Below the pieces are notes generated by a model. It saw only the letters and a list, made by a program, of their open reading frames with translations. It was not told where the DNA came from and did not search any database. A DNA stretch of 56,198 nucleotides from a virus. Below are positions 12,047 through 40,781 of the stretch, in pieces. How positions within the stretch are numbered: the stretch's first letter is position 1; every line of letters begins with the position of its first letter. Made by a program: the position numbers and the translations under genes. The stretch lies in the IMG/VR virus record IMGVR_UViG_3300009103_000041, positions 1-56,198 of that record; one strand, given 5' to 3'.

Positions 12047-12290
12047 AGGAAACCCCAGCTAGCTATTAAGCAGCTAGCAAGTAATCGTGTTTGCCGATTA
12101 AATTTTTCATTTTTAAGCCTTTGTTGGCTGACGAGTCTTGGGCGTTTATGCTAACTAGTCGATGCTTTGTCTCCCCCATCAAATATATTCTTTATTTAAT
12201 ATATTTGACATACTACCAAAAATATATTTGGTGGAGGAGGTGGGAGTTGCACCCACGTCCTAATTGCCTCTACCCTTACCTTTACGTCGT
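12047..12290 (-). ncRNA. ssrA: circularly permuted (two-piece type) tmRNA
   Basis: Read on the minus strand, the acceptor half comes first. T arm GTGGG/CCCAC with a 7-base loop (12240-12256), 3' strand CTCCTCC, discriminator A, and CCA ending at 12229. An AU-rich spacer follows, then the 5' half starting GGGGGAG at 12177. The acceptor stem pairs perfectly over 7 bp, with G-U as the third pair, the alanine identity element. CTAGTT in the 5' half can pair with AATTAG in the acceptor half (helix-2 position). The tag reading frame ends in the loop of a GCTAGCT/AGCTAGC hairpin. The 3'-before-5' order is the permuted form known from alphaproteobacteria and some cyanobacteria. The 5' end of the acceptor piece is approximate. 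Confidence 0.88.
12066..12128 (-). other. tmRNA tag-peptide reading frame
   Basis: Resume codon GCC at 12128 follows CUCGUCA, much as GUC precedes the resume codon in E. coli ssrA. The frame encodes ANKGLKMKNLIGKHDYLLAA (20 residues) and stops at TAA TAG. The LAA end is the standard degradation signal. The tag is longer than the E. coli one. Confidence 0.8.
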
Positions 12291-33947: not shown

Positions 33948-36470
33948 TTAAACGAAAAAAGATTCTAAAGAAATAGTCTTTTCGCTTTTCCAACCAACTG
34001 CATCTAATACTGGTTCAATCGCACTAATAAATGTCTTTTCAAATTGAAGGTTATAATCTATATAATCCTCAAGCTTAAATTGCTTTGGTAAAAAATCAAT
34101 AAATGAAATGACATTCTCTTTTATAGGATTTGGCATAACAAGGTATGTGAATTTAACCTTGTCGCCACTATGTATTTTTTCTATTTTTCTTTGAAGTTTT
34201 TGGTCATCAATTAAATGATTATGTAATATTGCTCCCCTCACATGAATTGGTGTACCCTTTTTATATATAGATTCTTTATCAATCCATTTGCGAATATTTT
34301 GCACAGACCGAGGAAAACTAACTTCCTCAGCTGCCGCTTGAGAGAATACTTTCTTAAAATTTTGTATATCACTTTGGACTGTCTGTTCATCAGTCTCAAT
34401 AATTCTTTTAAACATATCTTTTAATGCTTCCCTGCATATTGCTGGAGTACTTGACTTGATAGCTTCAATACCCATAATTTTTAAATGAGGATTTGTATAA
34501 CGAACACCTTCATTGTCATACACATTTAATATGTATCTTTTCTTTGCTGTCCATATACCTCTATTAGCAATTACTTCTCGTCCCATAACCATTTTATTTT
34601 CATAACCACCAAGTGAAATATATAGCTCATTAAAAGCTTCTTTAAGAGCATCTTCTATTGCGGTGGAACATAATTTATCTAAAAAGTTAATAGGGTTTGC
34701 TGGTTTAAAACGTTTAATAAATTCATCAAGGGTGACATACACTGAATCAGTATCAATAGCAATCACATAGTCTTTGTCAGTTTTTAAAGTCTTATTAAGA
34801 TATTCATTCAAATATTTCTCTGCCCATTTGATAGTTGCTTGGCCAGTAAGAGTAATAGCTTCAGCAATTCTCATATCAAAATACCTAAACCATTTATTAC
34901 CTATAGCGCCATATAAACTATTAAGAAGAATCTTAAGAGCCATTTGCTGATTTTTAGCTAAGGCAATACGCTTTTCAATATCATATTGCTCTGACTTACT
35001 GCCGGACAATTCTAATTCTTGTTCAGCTTTAATTTGTTTTTGTTTGAATTTAACCCGTTCATCATAGATTTTTTGGATTACTTGTGGGAATACACCACGC
35101 TTTTTACAATCAAAGCGGGTACCATTAACAGCTAATCCTGTATAGCGATGCGTATTTTTAATTTTATTATTAAGAACAGATTCAACATTAGTACCAGGCT
35201 CATCATCAAGTAATATAGTCTCAGGTGACATATTGTATTGCATAATGATTGATGGATATAGAGAGTTCAAGTCAAATGAACATACCCAATCATGCATTCC
35301 CACTTGAGGTTCTTTAACATACCCACCAGGATATGCACTTTTAAATGATTCCTCATTTTGTGGTATTGCTATTTTATGCTCATATAGATGTCTATAAATT
35401 AATGAATCCCAAATAGCAACAGTCCCTAGAACTGAATCATAATTGACACCACCTTTATATGCCATTGTCAAACATAAAGTAATAAGTCCAAGCTTATCTT
35501 CCATACGGTCTATAAGCTCAACGTCTTTTATATTATAATCAATAAACTTTTGATAGTCATTTGTATATAATTCATTTAAATTAGAAGCCTCACCGAAGTC
35601 AAGTTTCTTTTCACCAAGAACTATATTAGCAATATGGTCTAACTTATAAGATTCTTGTGGACCATGTTGATAACTAAACTTTTTAAAGATAGCCATATAG
35701 TCAAGAATAGTAATACCCTTTAGTTCATATCTAGTACGAATTTGTCCATAGCCCGTGTTGATTTCTCTTTTGTCTACCATTCTCCACGGAGATAGGAATT
35801 TCATTTTATTCTCACCATTAACTTTAGCTATTCTATTAACTAAGTAAGGAATATCAAAAAACTCTACGTTCCAACCAGTAATAACATCGGGTGATGTCTT
35901 TGCCATGTGATATACAAACTTGTGTAAGAGCTCATGTTCGGTTTGACATTTAATATATCTTACCTCATGAGTTTGCATAAGGGATTTACTCTTGTCATAA
36001 TCGCCACAGCCAAATGTATAATAGACATCATCTATATTGTTTTTCATTGTGATGGCTGTAATCTCTTGGTCGGCTATATCTGGGTCAGGGAAACCATCTC
36101 CATATTTTACTTCAATATCAAGTGAAGTAACATTAATAATATTTCTATCCCATTCTATATTTCCAGGAAATTTCTCATTAAGAAATTGCGCAACATAATT
36201 AGTATTACCATATATTTTAAAGTTAGGAACATCTTTATATTGTTTTATAAAATCAGTAGACTCACTCATACTTCCAAACGCAATTGGTTCTACTGGTGTG
36301 CCATCAAGTGCAGTCCAGCTGATTAGAGTCATTGTTTTATCTTCTTTGCTTGGGACGTATAAGGTTGGTGCGTATGGAACAGTATAGCTTACTTTTTTAC
36401 CATTCTTATAACCAGTATATTTGATTACTTTTCCGTGACGAAAAGCGTTAGTGTAAAAAGTATTATTCAT
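33948..36470 (-). CDS. 43: gp43 DNA polymerase, family B
   Basis: 840 aa. The exonuclease domain has TSLDIEVKYG (Asp118, Glu120), ITGWNVEFFDIPYLVNR and 'DYNIKDV'-type Exo III (FIDYNIKDVELID). The polymerase domain has SFDLNSLYPSIIMQYN (motif A), KILLNSLYGAIGNKWFR (motif B) and AIDTDSVYV (motif C). The C-terminus ISLESFFV is a typical sliding-clamp-binding tail. Uninterrupted by inteins or introns. Slightly shorter than T4 gp43 (898 aa). Confidence 0.97.
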   Translation of the reverse strand: MNNTFYTNAFRHGKVIKYTGYKNGKKVSYTVPYAPTLYVPSKEDKTMTLISWTALDGTPVEPIAFGSMSESTDFIKQYKDVPNFKIYGNTNYVAQFLNEKFPGNIEWDRNIINVTSLDIEVKYGDGFPDPDIADQEITAITMKNNIDDVYYTFGCGDYDKSKSLMQTHEVRYIKCQTEHELLHKFVYHMAKTSPDVITGWNVEFFDIPYLVNRIAKVNGENKMKFLSPWRMVDKREINTGYGQIRTRYELKGITILDYMAIFKKFSYQHGPQESYKLDHIANIVLGEKKLDFGEASNLNELYTNDYQKFIDYNIKDVELIDRMEDKLGLITLCLTMAYKGGVNYDSVLGTVAIWDSLIYRHLYEHKIAIPQNEESFKSAYPGGYVKEPQVGMHDWVCSFDLNSLYPSIIMQYNMSPETILLDDEPGTNVESVLNNKIKNTHRYTGLAVNGTRFDCKKRGVFPQVIQKIYDERVKFKQKQIKAEQELELSGSKSEQYDIEKRIALAKNQQMALKILLNSLYGAIGNKWFRYFDMRIAEAITLTGQATIKWAEKYLNEYLNKTLKTDKDYVIAIDTDSVYVTLDEFIKRFKPANPINFLDKLCSTAIEDALKEAFNELYISLGGYENKMVMGREVIANRGIWTAKKRYILNVYDNEGVRYTNPHLKIMGIEAIKSSTPAICREALKDMFKRIIETDEQTVQSDIQNFKKVFSQAAAEEVSFPRSVQNIRKWIDKESIYKKGTPIHVRGAILHNHLIDDQKLQRKIEKIHSGDKVKFTYLVMPNPIKENVISFIDFLPKQFKLEDYIDYNLQFEKTFISAIEPVLDAVGWKSEKTISLESFFV

Positions 36471-36819: not shown

Positions 36820-37200
36820 TTACCTGTGTTGTTTTGATTTGTAATCTTTTATTGCCGTTTTAATTGAATCTTCAGCTAAAACTGAGCAATGGATTTTGAC
36901 TGGAGGTAAGTTAAGTTGTTCAACCACCTCTGTATTTTTTATTTGTGTTGCTTCATCAAGGGTCATACCTTTAAGCATTTCTGTTATAATAGAAGAAGAT
37001 GCTATTGCAGAACCACAGCCATAACATTTAAATACTGCATCCTGTATAATATCTTTCTCTACTTTAATTTGTAGCTTCATAACATCACCACAAGAAGGAG
37101 CACCTACCATACCAGTTCCAACATTTTTATCATTAATATCCATCTTACCCACATTGCGTGGATTGTTATAATGGTCTAAAACTGCGCCTGAATATGCCAT
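36820..37200 (-). CDS. iscU: IscU/NifU-type Fe-S scaffold
   Basis: 126 aa, complete. Start YSGAVLDHYNNPRNVG is canonical. The cluster ligands are present: GAPSCGDVM (Cys37 with Asp39), CYGCGSAIASSS (Cys62), and LPPVKIHCSVLAED (His104, Cys105), which also contains the chaperone-recognition motif LPPVK. It builds and hands over [2Fe-2S] clusters, normally fed by a cysteine desulfurase. None is encoded in this window, so the host enzyme would be used. The IscA-like gene is at 11681-11992. Confidence 0.94.
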   Translation of the reverse strand: MAYSGAVLDHYNNPRNVGKMDINDKNVGTGMVGAPSCGDVMKLQIKVEKDIIQDAVFKCYGCGSAIASSSIITEMLKGMTLDEATQIKNTEVVEQLNLPPVKIHCSVLAEDSIKTAIKDYKSKQHR

Positions 37201-37219: not shown

Positions 37220-37678
37220 TTACCCAAGCAATAGCTTTTTAGCGTGCTTAGGTAGGTCACCTAAATTGATAGTTTGAGGCTTGTCCTCTTCTGGAATATC
37301 ATTCTCCAAAACAACAACAAGCAATCCATCTATAATGTCAGCTCCAACAACCTTAATTGTGTCGCTTAAAGTAAATGAACGCTCAAACGCCCTTTGAGAA
37401 ATACCACGATGTGTGTAATCTCTCTTATCTGAATCGCTATGTCTGCGACCAGATATAGTTAAAACCCCTTTTTCAAGAGTTAAGTCAATGTCTTCTTTCT
37501 TAAATCCTGCAACAGCGATTTCAATTAAAAAGTGACCGTCATCTCTTTTAACAACATTGTAAGGTGGATACCCTACGCCTCTGGCGGCTTGCATGTTTGT
37601 TTCCGCTAGTGTGTTAAAGAGTGAATCAAATCCCAGGAATGTATCCCTCGGGAAGTTAGTAAATGCTAAGTTTGTCAT
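37220..37678 (-). CDS. hsp20: small heat-shock protein Hsp20
   Basis: 152 aa. The alpha-crystallin domain spans about residues 35-135: PPYNVVKRDDGHFLIEIAVAGFKKEDIDL, ...KGVLTISGR..., 'YTHRGISQRAFERSFTL' and 'IIDGLLVVVLENDIPEE'. IbpA-like, as in most marine T4-like phages. It holds unfolding proteins soluble, perhaps during capsid assembly. The leader has an early and a late promoter and a ROSE-like thermometer over its ribosome site. Confidence 0.95.
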   Translation of the reverse strand: MTNLAFTNFPRDTFLGFDSLFNTLAETNMQAARGVGYPPYNVVKRDDGHFLIEIAVAGFKKEDIDLTLEKGVLTISGRRHSDSDKRDYTHRGISQRAFERSFTLSDTIKVVGADIIDGLLVVVLENDIPEEDKPQTINLGDLPKHAKKLLLG

Positions 37679-37755
37679 AATGACCTCCTATATATAGCAA
37701 GGTTATAAAATGTGGCTTCATGCCACGGTTATTGACAGCCCTTTCGGCACCGTCA
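37679..37755 (-). promoter_or_regulatory. ROSE-like RNA thermometer in the hsp20 leader
   Basis: The 5' leader folds into three hairpins. First: TTGACGG...CTGTCAA with GAAA loop. Second: GTGGC-ATGAA-GCCAC. Third, at the ribosome site: CCTTGCT (37702-37696), loop ATATAT, AGGAGG (37689-37684). The last pairs through with one bulged G, and TTGCT is the U(U/C)GCU signature of ROSE elements. ATG follows after TCATT. Confidence 0.7.
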
Positions 37756-37759
37756 AATC

Positions 37760-37767
37760 TATTTATA
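37760..37767 (-). promoter_or_regulatory. T4-type late promoter box for hsp20
   Basis: TATAAATA on the minus strand, 82 bp before the hsp20 start and overlapping the stop of the gene upstream. A transcript from here would contain the whole three-hairpin leader. Confidence 0.65.
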
Positions 37768-38281
37768 CATATATTATATCACAGTTTGGTGTAATTGTAA
37801 ACAGTTTTATTAATTTATTTTGCTCTTTTATTTCTTCCATCATTTGTATATCATCTATATACCATTCATAATTTGGGTATGTTATATTCCAGCCACCTGC
37901 TTCTTGCCACCAATTAAAACATTCATTATTATCTCTAACTACTGCAACAATTTTACTTTCTGGAAATAACTCTACAATATCATTTAAGTAATATGCAAAA
38001 TTATGAGATAGTATTACTTTAGTTTGGTCTTTAGGTCCATTAAAACTTTTGTCGATTTCATCAATCCACATTTGTCTGGTACCAAAAGTAGAGCCTAACC
38101 AATTACCATATTGCATCTTTGGTCCATAGTAATTTCCTTTATGACCAGCATATTTATGATGTTTATATATTCTGTCAGGAGTACAGTCAGTCATATCTGC
38201 ATTATGCTCTTCTCTAATTTTTTGAGAAATACCACTCCACATACTTCCTGGAGCACCTGTTACAAAAATCCAGTTTTTCAC
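37763..38281 (-). CDS. sulfotransferase-like P-loop protein
   Basis: 172 aa from a GTG that overlaps the TctC stop (GTGA). The N-terminus WIFVTGAPGSMWSGISQKI has a P-loop resembling the PAPS-binding loop of sulfotransferases, and 'SKIVAVVRDNNECFNWW' resembles the second PAPS-binding block. No acceptor can be deduced. Its last codons contain the promoter elements of hsp20. Confidence 0.5.
   Translation of the reverse strand: MKNWIFVTGAPGSMWSGISQKIREEHNADMTDCTPDRIYKHHKYAGHKGNYYGPKMQYGNWLGSTFGTRQMWIDEIDKSFNGPKDQTKVILSHNFAYYLNDIVELFPESKIVAVVRDNNECFNWWQEAGGWNITYPNYEWYIDDIQMMEEIKEQNKLIKLFTITPNCDIIYV
37773..37804 (-). promoter_or_regulatory. early-type promoter for hsp20
   Basis: TTTACA (37796-37801), 17 bp, TATAAT (37773-37778) in TGTGATATAATATATG, lying inside the end of the sulfotransferase-like gene. 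Confidence 0.7.
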
Positions 38282-39363
38282 CCTCTTAAATCAACTCCTT
38301 CAAGCGCTGTTGGTACCTCAACTTCTATTACAAAATGGTCTTTAAATATGCTTGCTAATCCTAATGCTTCTGTATTAAAACGAATTAAATTCCTAAGAGC
38401 ATCTTCAGTAATGAATGACATAAGGGTATCTCTATGTGCATTACCTTCATCACCAATCTTCCATTCATATTTACCAACTTTAGCTTCAATAGCAGCTACT
38501 GCGTCTGGGTCTAAACTCATTTGATGTAAAGCATTCCTTAAAGCAAATGTATTTGGATTTCCTTTATTTACCCATAAGGCTTTTTGCATACCATCTCTAA
38601 ATGATTTGACAAGCTTATAAGCATCATAAAATTCTCCGCTTGGTGGTGCATCCCAAAGTTCTTCAAATAAAATTTCTAATTGGAATCCAGGATAGTTAGG
38701 GTCATCAGCATGACTTCCATCTGCTTGCAATATACCATGATGGAACCATATTTCTGCTTTATCATTTGGTTCAACATGTTTTTTATATGCAGCTGGGTTT
38801 TCTCTTGTACCATTTAGTTCACCGCGTTTGAATGCAAGTCTACGTTCACCGCCTGACATTCCATTAACCCAAGTCACATGCTCTTTAAAGCATGCAATAT
38901 AATAATCTATTGATGTAGATTTATTACCACATATTAACATGGTCATAGCAAAAGCTTCGGGAACCATACCCGAACCAGCAGCAAAACTTGGATATGTCAT
39001 ATCTGCTCCAATAGCTTTACCGGCTATAATATTTAAATTCATAAGACCAATTGAGTCATAATCATTATAGTCATAGTCAACATTCTCTTGTAAGAAGCTA
39101 ACTCCATTACCACCATGACTTACCATGACAATCTTATCAGATGTTCTTAAAGAGTTATGGAATTCATTAAAGCCAGGAATATCTCTTGCTCCTGGTATAT
39201 GTTTAATGGTTATATTTTCTCCTAAGAATGGTTCAAGTTGGGTGGCTATAATTTGAGCCCATTGGCTTGTTCCAGCTCCAGGTTTTTGTGGTACAACAAA
39301 GATATAATCTGCAAATACAGATGTTGATAATGTTAAAATTAAAAGTGCTAGTAGTTTTTTCAT
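38278..39363 (-). CDS. tctC: TctC-type periplasmic solute-binding protein
   Basis: 361 aa with a Sec signal peptide (MKKLLALLILTLSTSVFA). The mature start DYIFVVPQKPGAGTSQWAQIIATQLEPFLG matches the TctC/Bug family beginning (P..PGGG.D...R), and the body shows the two-lobe pattern with 'KIVMVSHGGNGVSFL' and 'FKRGELNGTREN'. These proteins capture carboxylates for the TctA permease. Its ATG overlaps the TctA stop (ATGA), so both are made together. Slightly longer than usual (about 320 aa). The ligand cannot be read from sequence. Confidence 0.85.
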   Translation of the reverse strand: MKKLLALLILTLSTSVFADYIFVVPQKPGAGTSQWAQIIATQLEPFLGENITIKHIPGARDIPGFNEFHNSLRTSDKIVMVSHGGNGVSFLQENVDYDYNDYDSIGLMNLNIIAGKAIGADMTYPSFAAGSGMVPEAFAMTMLICGNKSTSIDYYIACFKEHVTWVNGMSGGERRLAFKRGELNGTRENPAAYKKHVEPNDKAEIWFHHGILQADGSHADDPNYPGFQLEILFEELWDAPPSGEFYDAYKLVKSFRDGMQKALWVNKGNPNTFALRNALHQMSLDPDAVAAIEAKVGKYEWKIGDEGNAHRDTLMSFITEDALRNLIRFNTEALGLASIFKDHFVIEVEVPTALEGVDLRG

Positions 39364-40781
39364 GCGTACTCCAATTTGTTTTTCTTTATAGACAATGTTG
39401 CCATTGCTATAATTGTTATAATTAAAATAATAAATATTGGCCTAGTCATAAGAGTATCTATAGTATATAAAGCACTTAATTGTAGGGTCAATGTTTCTAC
39501 TTTTATGGCTAAGATGAATGCCATCAGCAAAGCCGGTCTACTATATTTATATTGCTTGCAAAAGACTCCAAGAGCAGAGCATAATATTAATATAGCATAG
39601 TCCTCCCAACCACCAGTGTATTGAGCACAAGCCCAAGTGATAAACACCACAAGGATTGGGAAATAATATTTATATGGCCAAGAAGATATCTTTGAAATGT
39701 ATCTATTAAACACAATGCATAATATACCTACTAAAACCGTAGCCCACATAAATCCAAATGTGAGACTGTCAAAAAATCTTGTATCATAAGCAAGGTCAGG
39801 CGTTCCTAATTCAAAACCTAATACCATAAATAAAGCCATTAGTACTGCAGCAAAAGAAGCTCCAGGGATTCCAAATAAAACTGTGGGAATCATTGATGTA
39901 GCCTTTTGAGAATTATTAGCTCCTTCCGAACCTATAACACCTCTTATATTTCCTTTACCAAATTCTTCATTAGGATTGGCAGCAACGGCTGAACCATACG
40001 CCATCCAATCTCCCATAGCACCACCAAGTCCTGGAAGGAAACCAATAAAGGCTCCTATTGCTCCACCTCTTATTGAATCCCATTTATATTTCCATGCGGC
40101 TTTAATTCCTTCTAATGTTTGGCCTGATGAATTATGTTTAGTTGTTGTTGCATCTCCTTTTCTCCAACCATCTAATATTTCAGGGAAGGCAAATAGACCA
40201 GCAACCATTGGCATAATTTGAATACCAGCTCCTAGATATTCCCAACCAAATGTCCACCTATCAGCATTTGTCACTGGGTCAGTGCCTATGCTTCCTAAGA
40301 ATAATCCAATTAATATAGCAATCAAGCTTCTAATCCAGAATTTATTAGATACAAATCCAACACAGGCAAGAGCTAACATAACAAAAGCCCACATCTCTGG
40401 GACGCCAAAGACCATCATAAGTTTTGTATACCAAGGGAGTAAGGCAAATGTAAGTGTTCCCCATAGGAGACCATTGACAGTTGAGGTTGTTATTGCAGCC
40501 GTAAGAGCATAGGTTGCTTTACCTTGCTTGGCTAGAGGGTGACCGTCGACCATTGTGGCCGCGGCTGAATTAGCACCTGGGATACCTAATAAGATTCCGG
40601 AGTATGTATCACCTGTGGTAGAGGCTGCTACTACAGCCATACAGAATATAACTCCTAAGTACGGGTCTGAGAAATAAGACATAAAACCAAATAGAACTAC
40701 AAGACCCGTGGTGGCTCCAGCAGCTGGTATCAATCCAATTATAAGCCCATACAATGTGCCTAATAACAATGCTAAAATCAT
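39360..40781 (-). CDS. tctA: TctA-type tripartite tricarboxylate transporter permease
   Basis: 473 aa with about 12 hydrophobic helices and the two TctA signature repeats: GLIPAAGATTGLVV ... TTGDTYSGILLGIPGANSAAATMVDGHPLAKQGKATYAL, and 'GFLPGLGGAMGDWMAYGSAVAANPNEEFGKGNIRGVIGSEGANNSQKA...GIPGASFAAVLMALF'. It imports di/tricarboxylates with TctC. The N-terminus is about 20-30 residues shorter than common TctA. No TctB lies beside it. It follows RegA by 10 bp inside the replication operon. The signatures are intact, so the gene does not look decayed. Confidence 0.93.
   Translation of the reverse strand: MILALLLGTLYGLIIGLIPAAGATTGLVVLFGFMSYFSDPYLGVIFCMAVVAASTTGDTYSGILLGIPGANSAAATMVDGHPLAKQGKATYALTAAITTSTVNGLLWGTLTFALLPWYTKLMMVFGVPEMWAFVMLALACVGFVSNKFWIRSLIAILIGLFLGSIGTDPVTNADRWTFGWEYLGAGIQIMPMVAGLFAFPEILDGWRKGDATTTKHNSSGQTLEGIKAAWKYKWDSIRGGAIGAFIGFLPGLGGAMGDWMAYGSAVAANPNEEFGKGNIRGVIGSEGANNSQKATSMIPTVLFGIPGASFAAVLMALFMVLGFELGTPDLAYDTRFFDSLTFGFMWATVLVGILCIVFNRYISKISSWPYKYYFPILVVFITWACAQYTGGWEDYAILILCSALGVFCKQYKYSRPALLMAFILAIKVETLTLQLSALYTIDTLMTRPIFIILIITIIAMATLSIKKNKLEYA

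Follow-up and report, generated by a model that had tools for sequence, protein, structure and literature searches.

Does a virus that carries its own small heat-shock gene also carry a temperature switch for that gene? The locus analysed here raises this question. The whole stretch of DNA under study (the window, 56,198 nucleotides) comes from a 56-kb virus record, and it is judged to be that of a T4-like phage by its T4-type late promoter, its family B DNA polymerase and an hsp20-polymerase neighbourhood common to T4-like marine phages. The leader of its hsp20 gene very probably acts as a ROSE-like RNA thermometer, and the evidence for this assignment comprises the anatomy of the leader, its conservation and covariation, its specificity for hsp20, and its likeness to the leaders of Escherichia coli ibpA and ibpB.

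The hsp20 locus and its leader

All features of the locus lie on the minus strand (Table 1). The window Hsp20 protein is related to the IbpA/IbpB models, with scores under their cut-offs. Downstream of hsp20 are a NifU-like gene, a small gene and then the polymerase gene (33948-36470); the NifU-like gene, which encodes an iron-sulphur scaffold protein (36820-37200, minus strand; PF01592, E=1e-48), directly follows hsp20. Upstream, the order is a sigma-70-type promoter, the T4 late promoter, three hairpins and the ATG. The sigma-70-type promoter is a pattern match alone, of a type that occurs on average 1.8 times in shuffled sequence, and its start site is putative. The late promoter is found at the same position in close relatives; the T4 late consensus is TATAAAT (PMC3037559).

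Table 1. Features of the hsp20 locus, in window coordinates
Feature	Position	Strand	Description and basis
hsp20 gene	37220..37678	-	small heat-shock protein, 152 aa; PF00011, E=1.6e-15
Shine-Dalgarno (SD) AGGAGG	37684..37689	-	sequence
Hairpin 3, putative ROSE-like thermosensing hairpin, ACCTTGCTATATATAGGAGGT	37683..37703	-	fold, conservation, covariation
U(U/C)GCU anti-Shine-Dalgarno motif	37696..37700	-	bulged G at 37698
Hairpin 2, GTGGC-ATGAA-GCCAC	37712..37726	-	lineage-specific; many relatives without it
Hairpin 1, companion hairpin with its own bulged G, GACGGU[G]CC GAAA GGGCUGUC	37732..37756	-	fold and covariation
T4-type late promoter TATAAATA	37760..37767	-	sequence; 5' of all hairpins
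Sigma-70-type promoter TTTACA-17-TATAAT, TG before the second hexamer	37773..37801	-	11/12 consensus; 5' of all hairpins

An earlier reading made from the sequence alone had placed three hairpins in the leader, the last of which pairs CCTTGCT with AGGAGG around a 6-base loop and leaves one bulged G. Both the sequence and the coordinates given there were correct, and the fold was reproduced: CCTTGCT (37702-37696) pairs with the SD, G37698 is bulged, and the loop has 6 bases, or 4 with one extra A-U pair. In the predicted fold, hairpin 3 hides the hsp20 ribosome site, and the SD of hsp20 is predicted to be the third least accessible among the 43 SD-bearing genes of the window. Of 200 dinucleotide shuffles of the 101-nt leader, 196 folded less stably than the leader itself (z -2.28), a result that by itself is only suggestive; it is the conservation among relatives, described below, that lifts the structure above chance. 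When the first codons were included, the hairpin 3 region was instead paired to the beginning of the coding sequence in the minimum-energy fold of the resulting 151 nt, and because of this competing fold the predicted hairpin 3 is marginal in the window phage itself. The computed accessibility of the SD stayed flat over temperature in the phage leaders, but the E. coli ibpA control behaved in almost the same way, so predicted melting does not discriminate.

Conservation and covariation of the leader hairpins

Loci carrying hsp20 were gathered by single-protein Hsp20 searches, and 80 IMG/VR loci were found to encode an Hsp20 protein 61-100% identical to that of the window. In the leaders of close relatives, AACCTTGCT..ATAGGAGG is near invariant, whereas in hairpins 1 and 2 a change in one arm is matched by a change in the other; within the window's own clade, CCTTGCT and AGGAGG are nearly constant. 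The last hairpin of a more distant set (L062-L081) reads CTCGCTTAATATAAGGAG or CTCGCTTAACAGGAG, in which the U.G pair is replaced by C-G and the bulged G is kept; the definition of the ROSE motif also permits UCGCU (PMC11342760). The SD hairpin is also present in S-RSM4-like and HTVC103P-like relatives and in named phages, including S-PM2, syn9, P-SSM2, P-SSM4, P-HM1, P-TIM40, S-ShM2, S-CRM01, S-CAM8, Syn33, S-PRM1, MA10, ACG-2014f, S-RSM4, Mosig, HTVC103P, HTVC115P and C48C1.

Across 180 distinct hsp20 leaders, the strict motif U(U/C)GCU, paired with AGGA and closed by a complementary outer pair, was found in 175, and the outer pair is C-G in 59 of them, G-C in 59, A-U in 55 and U.G in 2. The other five leaders are those of L246, the Pseudomonas jumbo phage Callisto, S-TIM61 and two Vibrio phages. 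Judged by their sequences, L246, Callisto and S-TIM61 may be read as variants of the motif, and the Vibrio phage pair weakly so; Callisto has the SD hairpin in a variant form, and S-TIM61 has CACGCT..AAGGTG, an exchange of U-A for A-U inside the motif, with no hairpin 1 registered. At the starts of other genes in the same loci the motif occurred in about 1 of 654 cases (about, since five of the six matches there look like hsp20 genes overlooked by the filter), versus 139 of 140 recognised hsp20 genes. As far as leader sequences tell, nearly every marine phage hsp20 copy examined carries the ROSE-like hairpin. The sequence-only reading had staked its claim on the conservation of TTGCT and of the pairing in related phages and had proposed to look there for compensatory changes: the motif, the bulged G and the pairing are all kept in T4-like cyanophages and pelagiphages, and as a variant in the Pseudomonas jumbo phage, and compensatory changes are present.

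Two minor observations concern individual phages. The annotated GTG start of P-HM1 hsp20 falls inside hairpin 1 (GU071101.1:130072; L279:1372; GTGTCGCCTTCGGGG), and the ATG after the ROSE-like hairpin is the likely start. In P-SSM2, a manA RNA (RF01745, 181.6 bits; L278:728-925) lies about 0.4 kb 5' of the hsp20 thermometer.

The leader has three hairpins in the window and two in most relatives. Hairpin 1 occurs in nearly all phages with the SD hairpin, although the companion hairpin of HTVC115P deviates from the usual core; in many cyanophages it carries the same bulged-G module as the SD hairpin, and in relatives both bases have changed in five of its seven pairs. Since the changes in the outer pair of the SD hairpin follow clades, few independent events lie behind them, and hairpin 1 adds further independent change events. 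A MAFFT alignment of 12 seed leaders placed all five measures above all 500 shuffles. MAFFT alone left loops ungapped, so leaders with equal loops served to build a model, to which the remaining leaders were then aligned. In the resulting alignment of 46 distinct leaders, which leans towards the structure, 99.5% of cells pair, compared with 77.8% after shuffling. Covariation scores 0.608 versus 0.185 in shuffles, none of 500 of which came as high. Controls with slid partners gave 0.045-0.109, and the number of pairs with double changes in the 46 leaders was not in excess over shuffles (322 of 500). The count of 175 among 180 leaders is independent of this alignment.

A covariance model, R1, was built from 12 leaders of other phages with the window's leader left out. 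Applied to the window, R1 matched 37684-37753 at 26.5 bits (E=1.5e-8), the next match having E=0.011. In 16 of 22 complete phage records, its best match was the hsp20 leader; stricter filters in this search lost HTVC103P, which the locus search recovered. Second matches in S-CAM8 and Syn33 fall inside uvsX and were taken as chance. On 4 kb around ibpAB of E. coli K-12, the top two matches of R1 were the ibpA and ibpB leaders, with the companion-hairpin part only loosely fitted.

The sequence-only reading had also proposed a search with the ROSE covariance models, and here the outcome was divided. The Rfam models (RF00435, RF01832 and RF02523) left the window leader unmatched even at E≤10, and they found no ROSE element in 19 loci, mostly of named phages, nor in 11 further phage loci. 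ROSE_3 (RF02523) did match a related hsp20 leader, L312, which comes from a metagenome-assembled bin and follows a T4 late promoter, at 33.7 bits (E=0.0017), under the curated cut-off of 43 bits; a second hsp20 leader, L318, gave a sub-threshold E=0.034. Thus, no phage leader searched reached the curated cut-off of an Rfam ROSE family, and 33.7 bits was the best score of a related hsp20 leader.

Likeness to ROSE elements and competing explanations

In its published definition, a ROSE element has two to four hairpins, the motif U(U/C)GCU and a bulged G with a U.G (or C-G) pair on one side and a C-G pair on the other (PMC11342760; PMC3669281). Tested ROSE elements open on warming, the SD hairpin alone being sufficient, and induction is weakened or lost once the bulged G is taken out (PMC11342760; PMC3669281). 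The window leader has TTGCT opposite AGGAGG, a predicted bulged G with such neighbours in an imperfect stem, and three hairpins with the SD in the 3' proximal one, and it stands 5' of a small heat-shock gene (PF00011). The ROSE-like reading offered from the sequence alone is thus supported, both by the fit of the motif to the published definition and by the conservation of motif and pairing with compensatory changes. A fourU thermometer was rejected: it needs four consecutive U against the SD, and the strand opposite the SD here is CCUUGCU.

Among known families, ROSE_2 (RF01832, E. coli ibpA) has the same arrangement, namely a penultimate hairpin with one bulge followed by an SD hairpin, CUC[G]CU..AGGAG. 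The SD hairpin of the E. coli ibpB leader, ACTCGCTTCTTAGAAGGAG, is nearly identical to the cyanophage hairpin, TGTCCATTGTGGA is common to the companion (penultimate) hairpin of E. coli ibpA and to hairpin 1 of the HTVC103P type, and ibpA, ibpB and phage hsp20 belong to the same gene family. Unlike ROSE_2, however, the phage element belongs to a phage gene preceded by a sigma-70-type promoter and a phage late promoter, is shorter and is unrecognised by the Rfam model, and the window clade has the additional hairpin 2. ROSE_3 and the short Pseudomonas ibpA elements (PMC3669281) likewise have two hairpins, of which the first is stable and the second contains U(U/C)GCU, with flanking G-C pairs, whereas the phage leaders score under the ROSE_3 cut-off and their function is inferred. 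Hairpin 1 is the counterpart of the stable companion hairpin in the enterobacterial and Pseudomonas elements, and it probably keeps the fold in register.

Phage thermometers with tested temperature control of translation include those of lambda cIII, SPbeta blyA (fourU) and Caudoviricetes sigma-70 (PMC10586365; PMC11182007), but these are of other RNA types and on other genes; none is a ROSE element and none is on a heat-shock gene. In Synechocystis, a member of the phylum infected by cyanophages, the small heat-shock gene hsp17 has a thermometer (PMC4477652). In the papers searched, ROSE elements are described in bacteria only; the open literature, with subscription journals and preprints outside the scope, yielded neither a phage-borne ROSE element nor a thermometer for a phage hsp20 gene, and the papers examined on cyanophage Hsp20 do not mention a thermometer. 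What is new here is therefore a ROSE-type element in viruses, unreported in the literature searched and absent from Rfam; the ROSE kind itself is known.

A hidden ribosome site could also serve purposes other than sensing temperature. In T4 genes e and soc, a timing hairpin hides the SD only in early read-through transcripts, while late transcripts begin inside the structure and are free. The window comes from a T4-like phage with a late promoter directly 5' of the structure, yet all three hairpins lie 3' of TATAAATA and of the sigma-70-type promoter, with their putative starts; both transcripts would thus include the hairpins, and a late start inside the structure that removes the 5' arm is not predicted. 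Pelagiphages of a different kind, whose promoter is TTGACA/TATAAT, have the same element, as do bacterial hsp20 genes, and a timing hairpin of the T4 type, to which we assign a very low probability, was rejected. Equally rejected was the idea that the hairpins are terminators or attenuators of the upstream gene: hairpin 2 with its tail ATTTTATA scores terminator-like and a T-run follows hairpin 1 in some relatives (L012 type), but the T-run is unconserved (for example in P-SSM4, P-TIM40 and S-CAM8), hairpin 2 is absent from many relatives, the hairpins lie 3' of both promoters, and the SD pairing covaries on its own, which leaves this explanation barely credible. Conservation of the motif as plain sequence, for a strong ribosome site or its spacing and with incidental pairing, might account for the near invariance of CCTTGCT and AGGAGG in the window's clade; it has next to no chance of holding against an outer pair that shifts on both sides between clades (C-G to G-C to A-U), the internal U-A to A-U exchange in S-TIM61 and the strong covariation of hairpin 1, and it was also rejected.

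The remaining alternative, that the SD hairpin is a switch for a protein (a phage repressor such as RegA, or Hsp20 in feedback) or for a small molecule instead of temperature, is improbable, though the least so of the four. The regA gene is just 5' of hsp20 in several cyanophages, and the strongly conserved shape of hairpin 1 could be a putative binding site. Against it, the same structure is found on bacterial hsp20 and in phages with quite different neighbours, and in ROSE elements the bulged-G module acts as the sensor (PMC11342760; PMC3669281). A protein operator is only disfavoured, and it may be combined with temperature control.

Proposed action and bacterial counterparts

By analogy with tested ROSE elements, the ROSE-like thermometer would repress translation in the cold, when U(U/C)GCU in the 3' hairpin is paired to the SD and one G is left bulged. 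On warming, the stem, weakened by the U.G or C-G pair beside the bulged G and by an A-U-rich loop end, would open, and the phage chaperone would then be translated from pre-existing mRNA. The likely benefit would be a chaperone for proteins of phage or host when the infected cell is warm or under heat stress. Phage hsp20 may also be under temperature control independently of the host sigma system, as the sequence-only reading had suggested; the sigma-70-type and T4 late promoters, as candidate sites, would fit such control. T4-like cyanophages have hsp20 among their core genes, and its role has only been guessed, as capsid scaffolding (PMC3037559). A conserved leader that is probably heat-gated suggests instead that Hsp20 is needed when the infected cell is warm.

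R1 was also used to search a sample of 190 bacterial genomes of the class to which a Rhodobacteraceae bin belongs. Several of the best matches were hsp20 leaders (L316, L317, L318, L323 and L327). Four of these leaders are in small genomes (L318 and L323 on contigs of 0.88 and 1.21 Mb), and L327, from a larger genome, has the cyanophage core AUGCCUUCGGGGU. As in the phages, two hairpins precede hsp20 in these alphaproteobacterial leaders; unlike the phage copies, the genes are apparently chromosomal. Since R1 matches at alphaproteobacterial hsp20, these bacteria have an element of the phage kind on their own hsp20 genes. Judged by sequence likeness, then, one element outside Rfam coverage is common to T4-like cyanophages, pelagiphages and alphaproteobacterial hsp20 genes. 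A bolder proposal, which we put forward tentatively and with more doubt than confidence, is that thermometer and chaperone form a near-universal virus-owned cassette in these three groups that has moved as one piece and makes infections temperature-responsive. If so, the thermometer type would be foreign to the host in some hosts.

In two alphaproteobacterial genomes, R1 also matched just 5' of rpoH (sigma-32; TIGR02392 above cut-off), at L319:1501-1554 (E=2.6e-6) and L330:1501-1558 (E=2.3e-4), respectively. These leaders may possibly contain a ROSE-like thermometer, unlike the E. coli rpoH structure. Several contigs in Gammaproteobacteria and Rhodobacteraceae bins (L247, L248 and L308-L314) have a phage-type hsp20 behind T4 late promoters, and those bins probably contain phage contigs.

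Elsewhere in the window, Rfam RF04321 identified a permuted (two-piece) tmRNA at 12066-12289 on the minus strand (79.1 bits versus a cut-off of 47), where ARAGORN called no tmRNA. A TctA-family transporter subunit (39360-40781, minus strand; PF01970, E=9e-96) adjoins two genes without a Pfam match.
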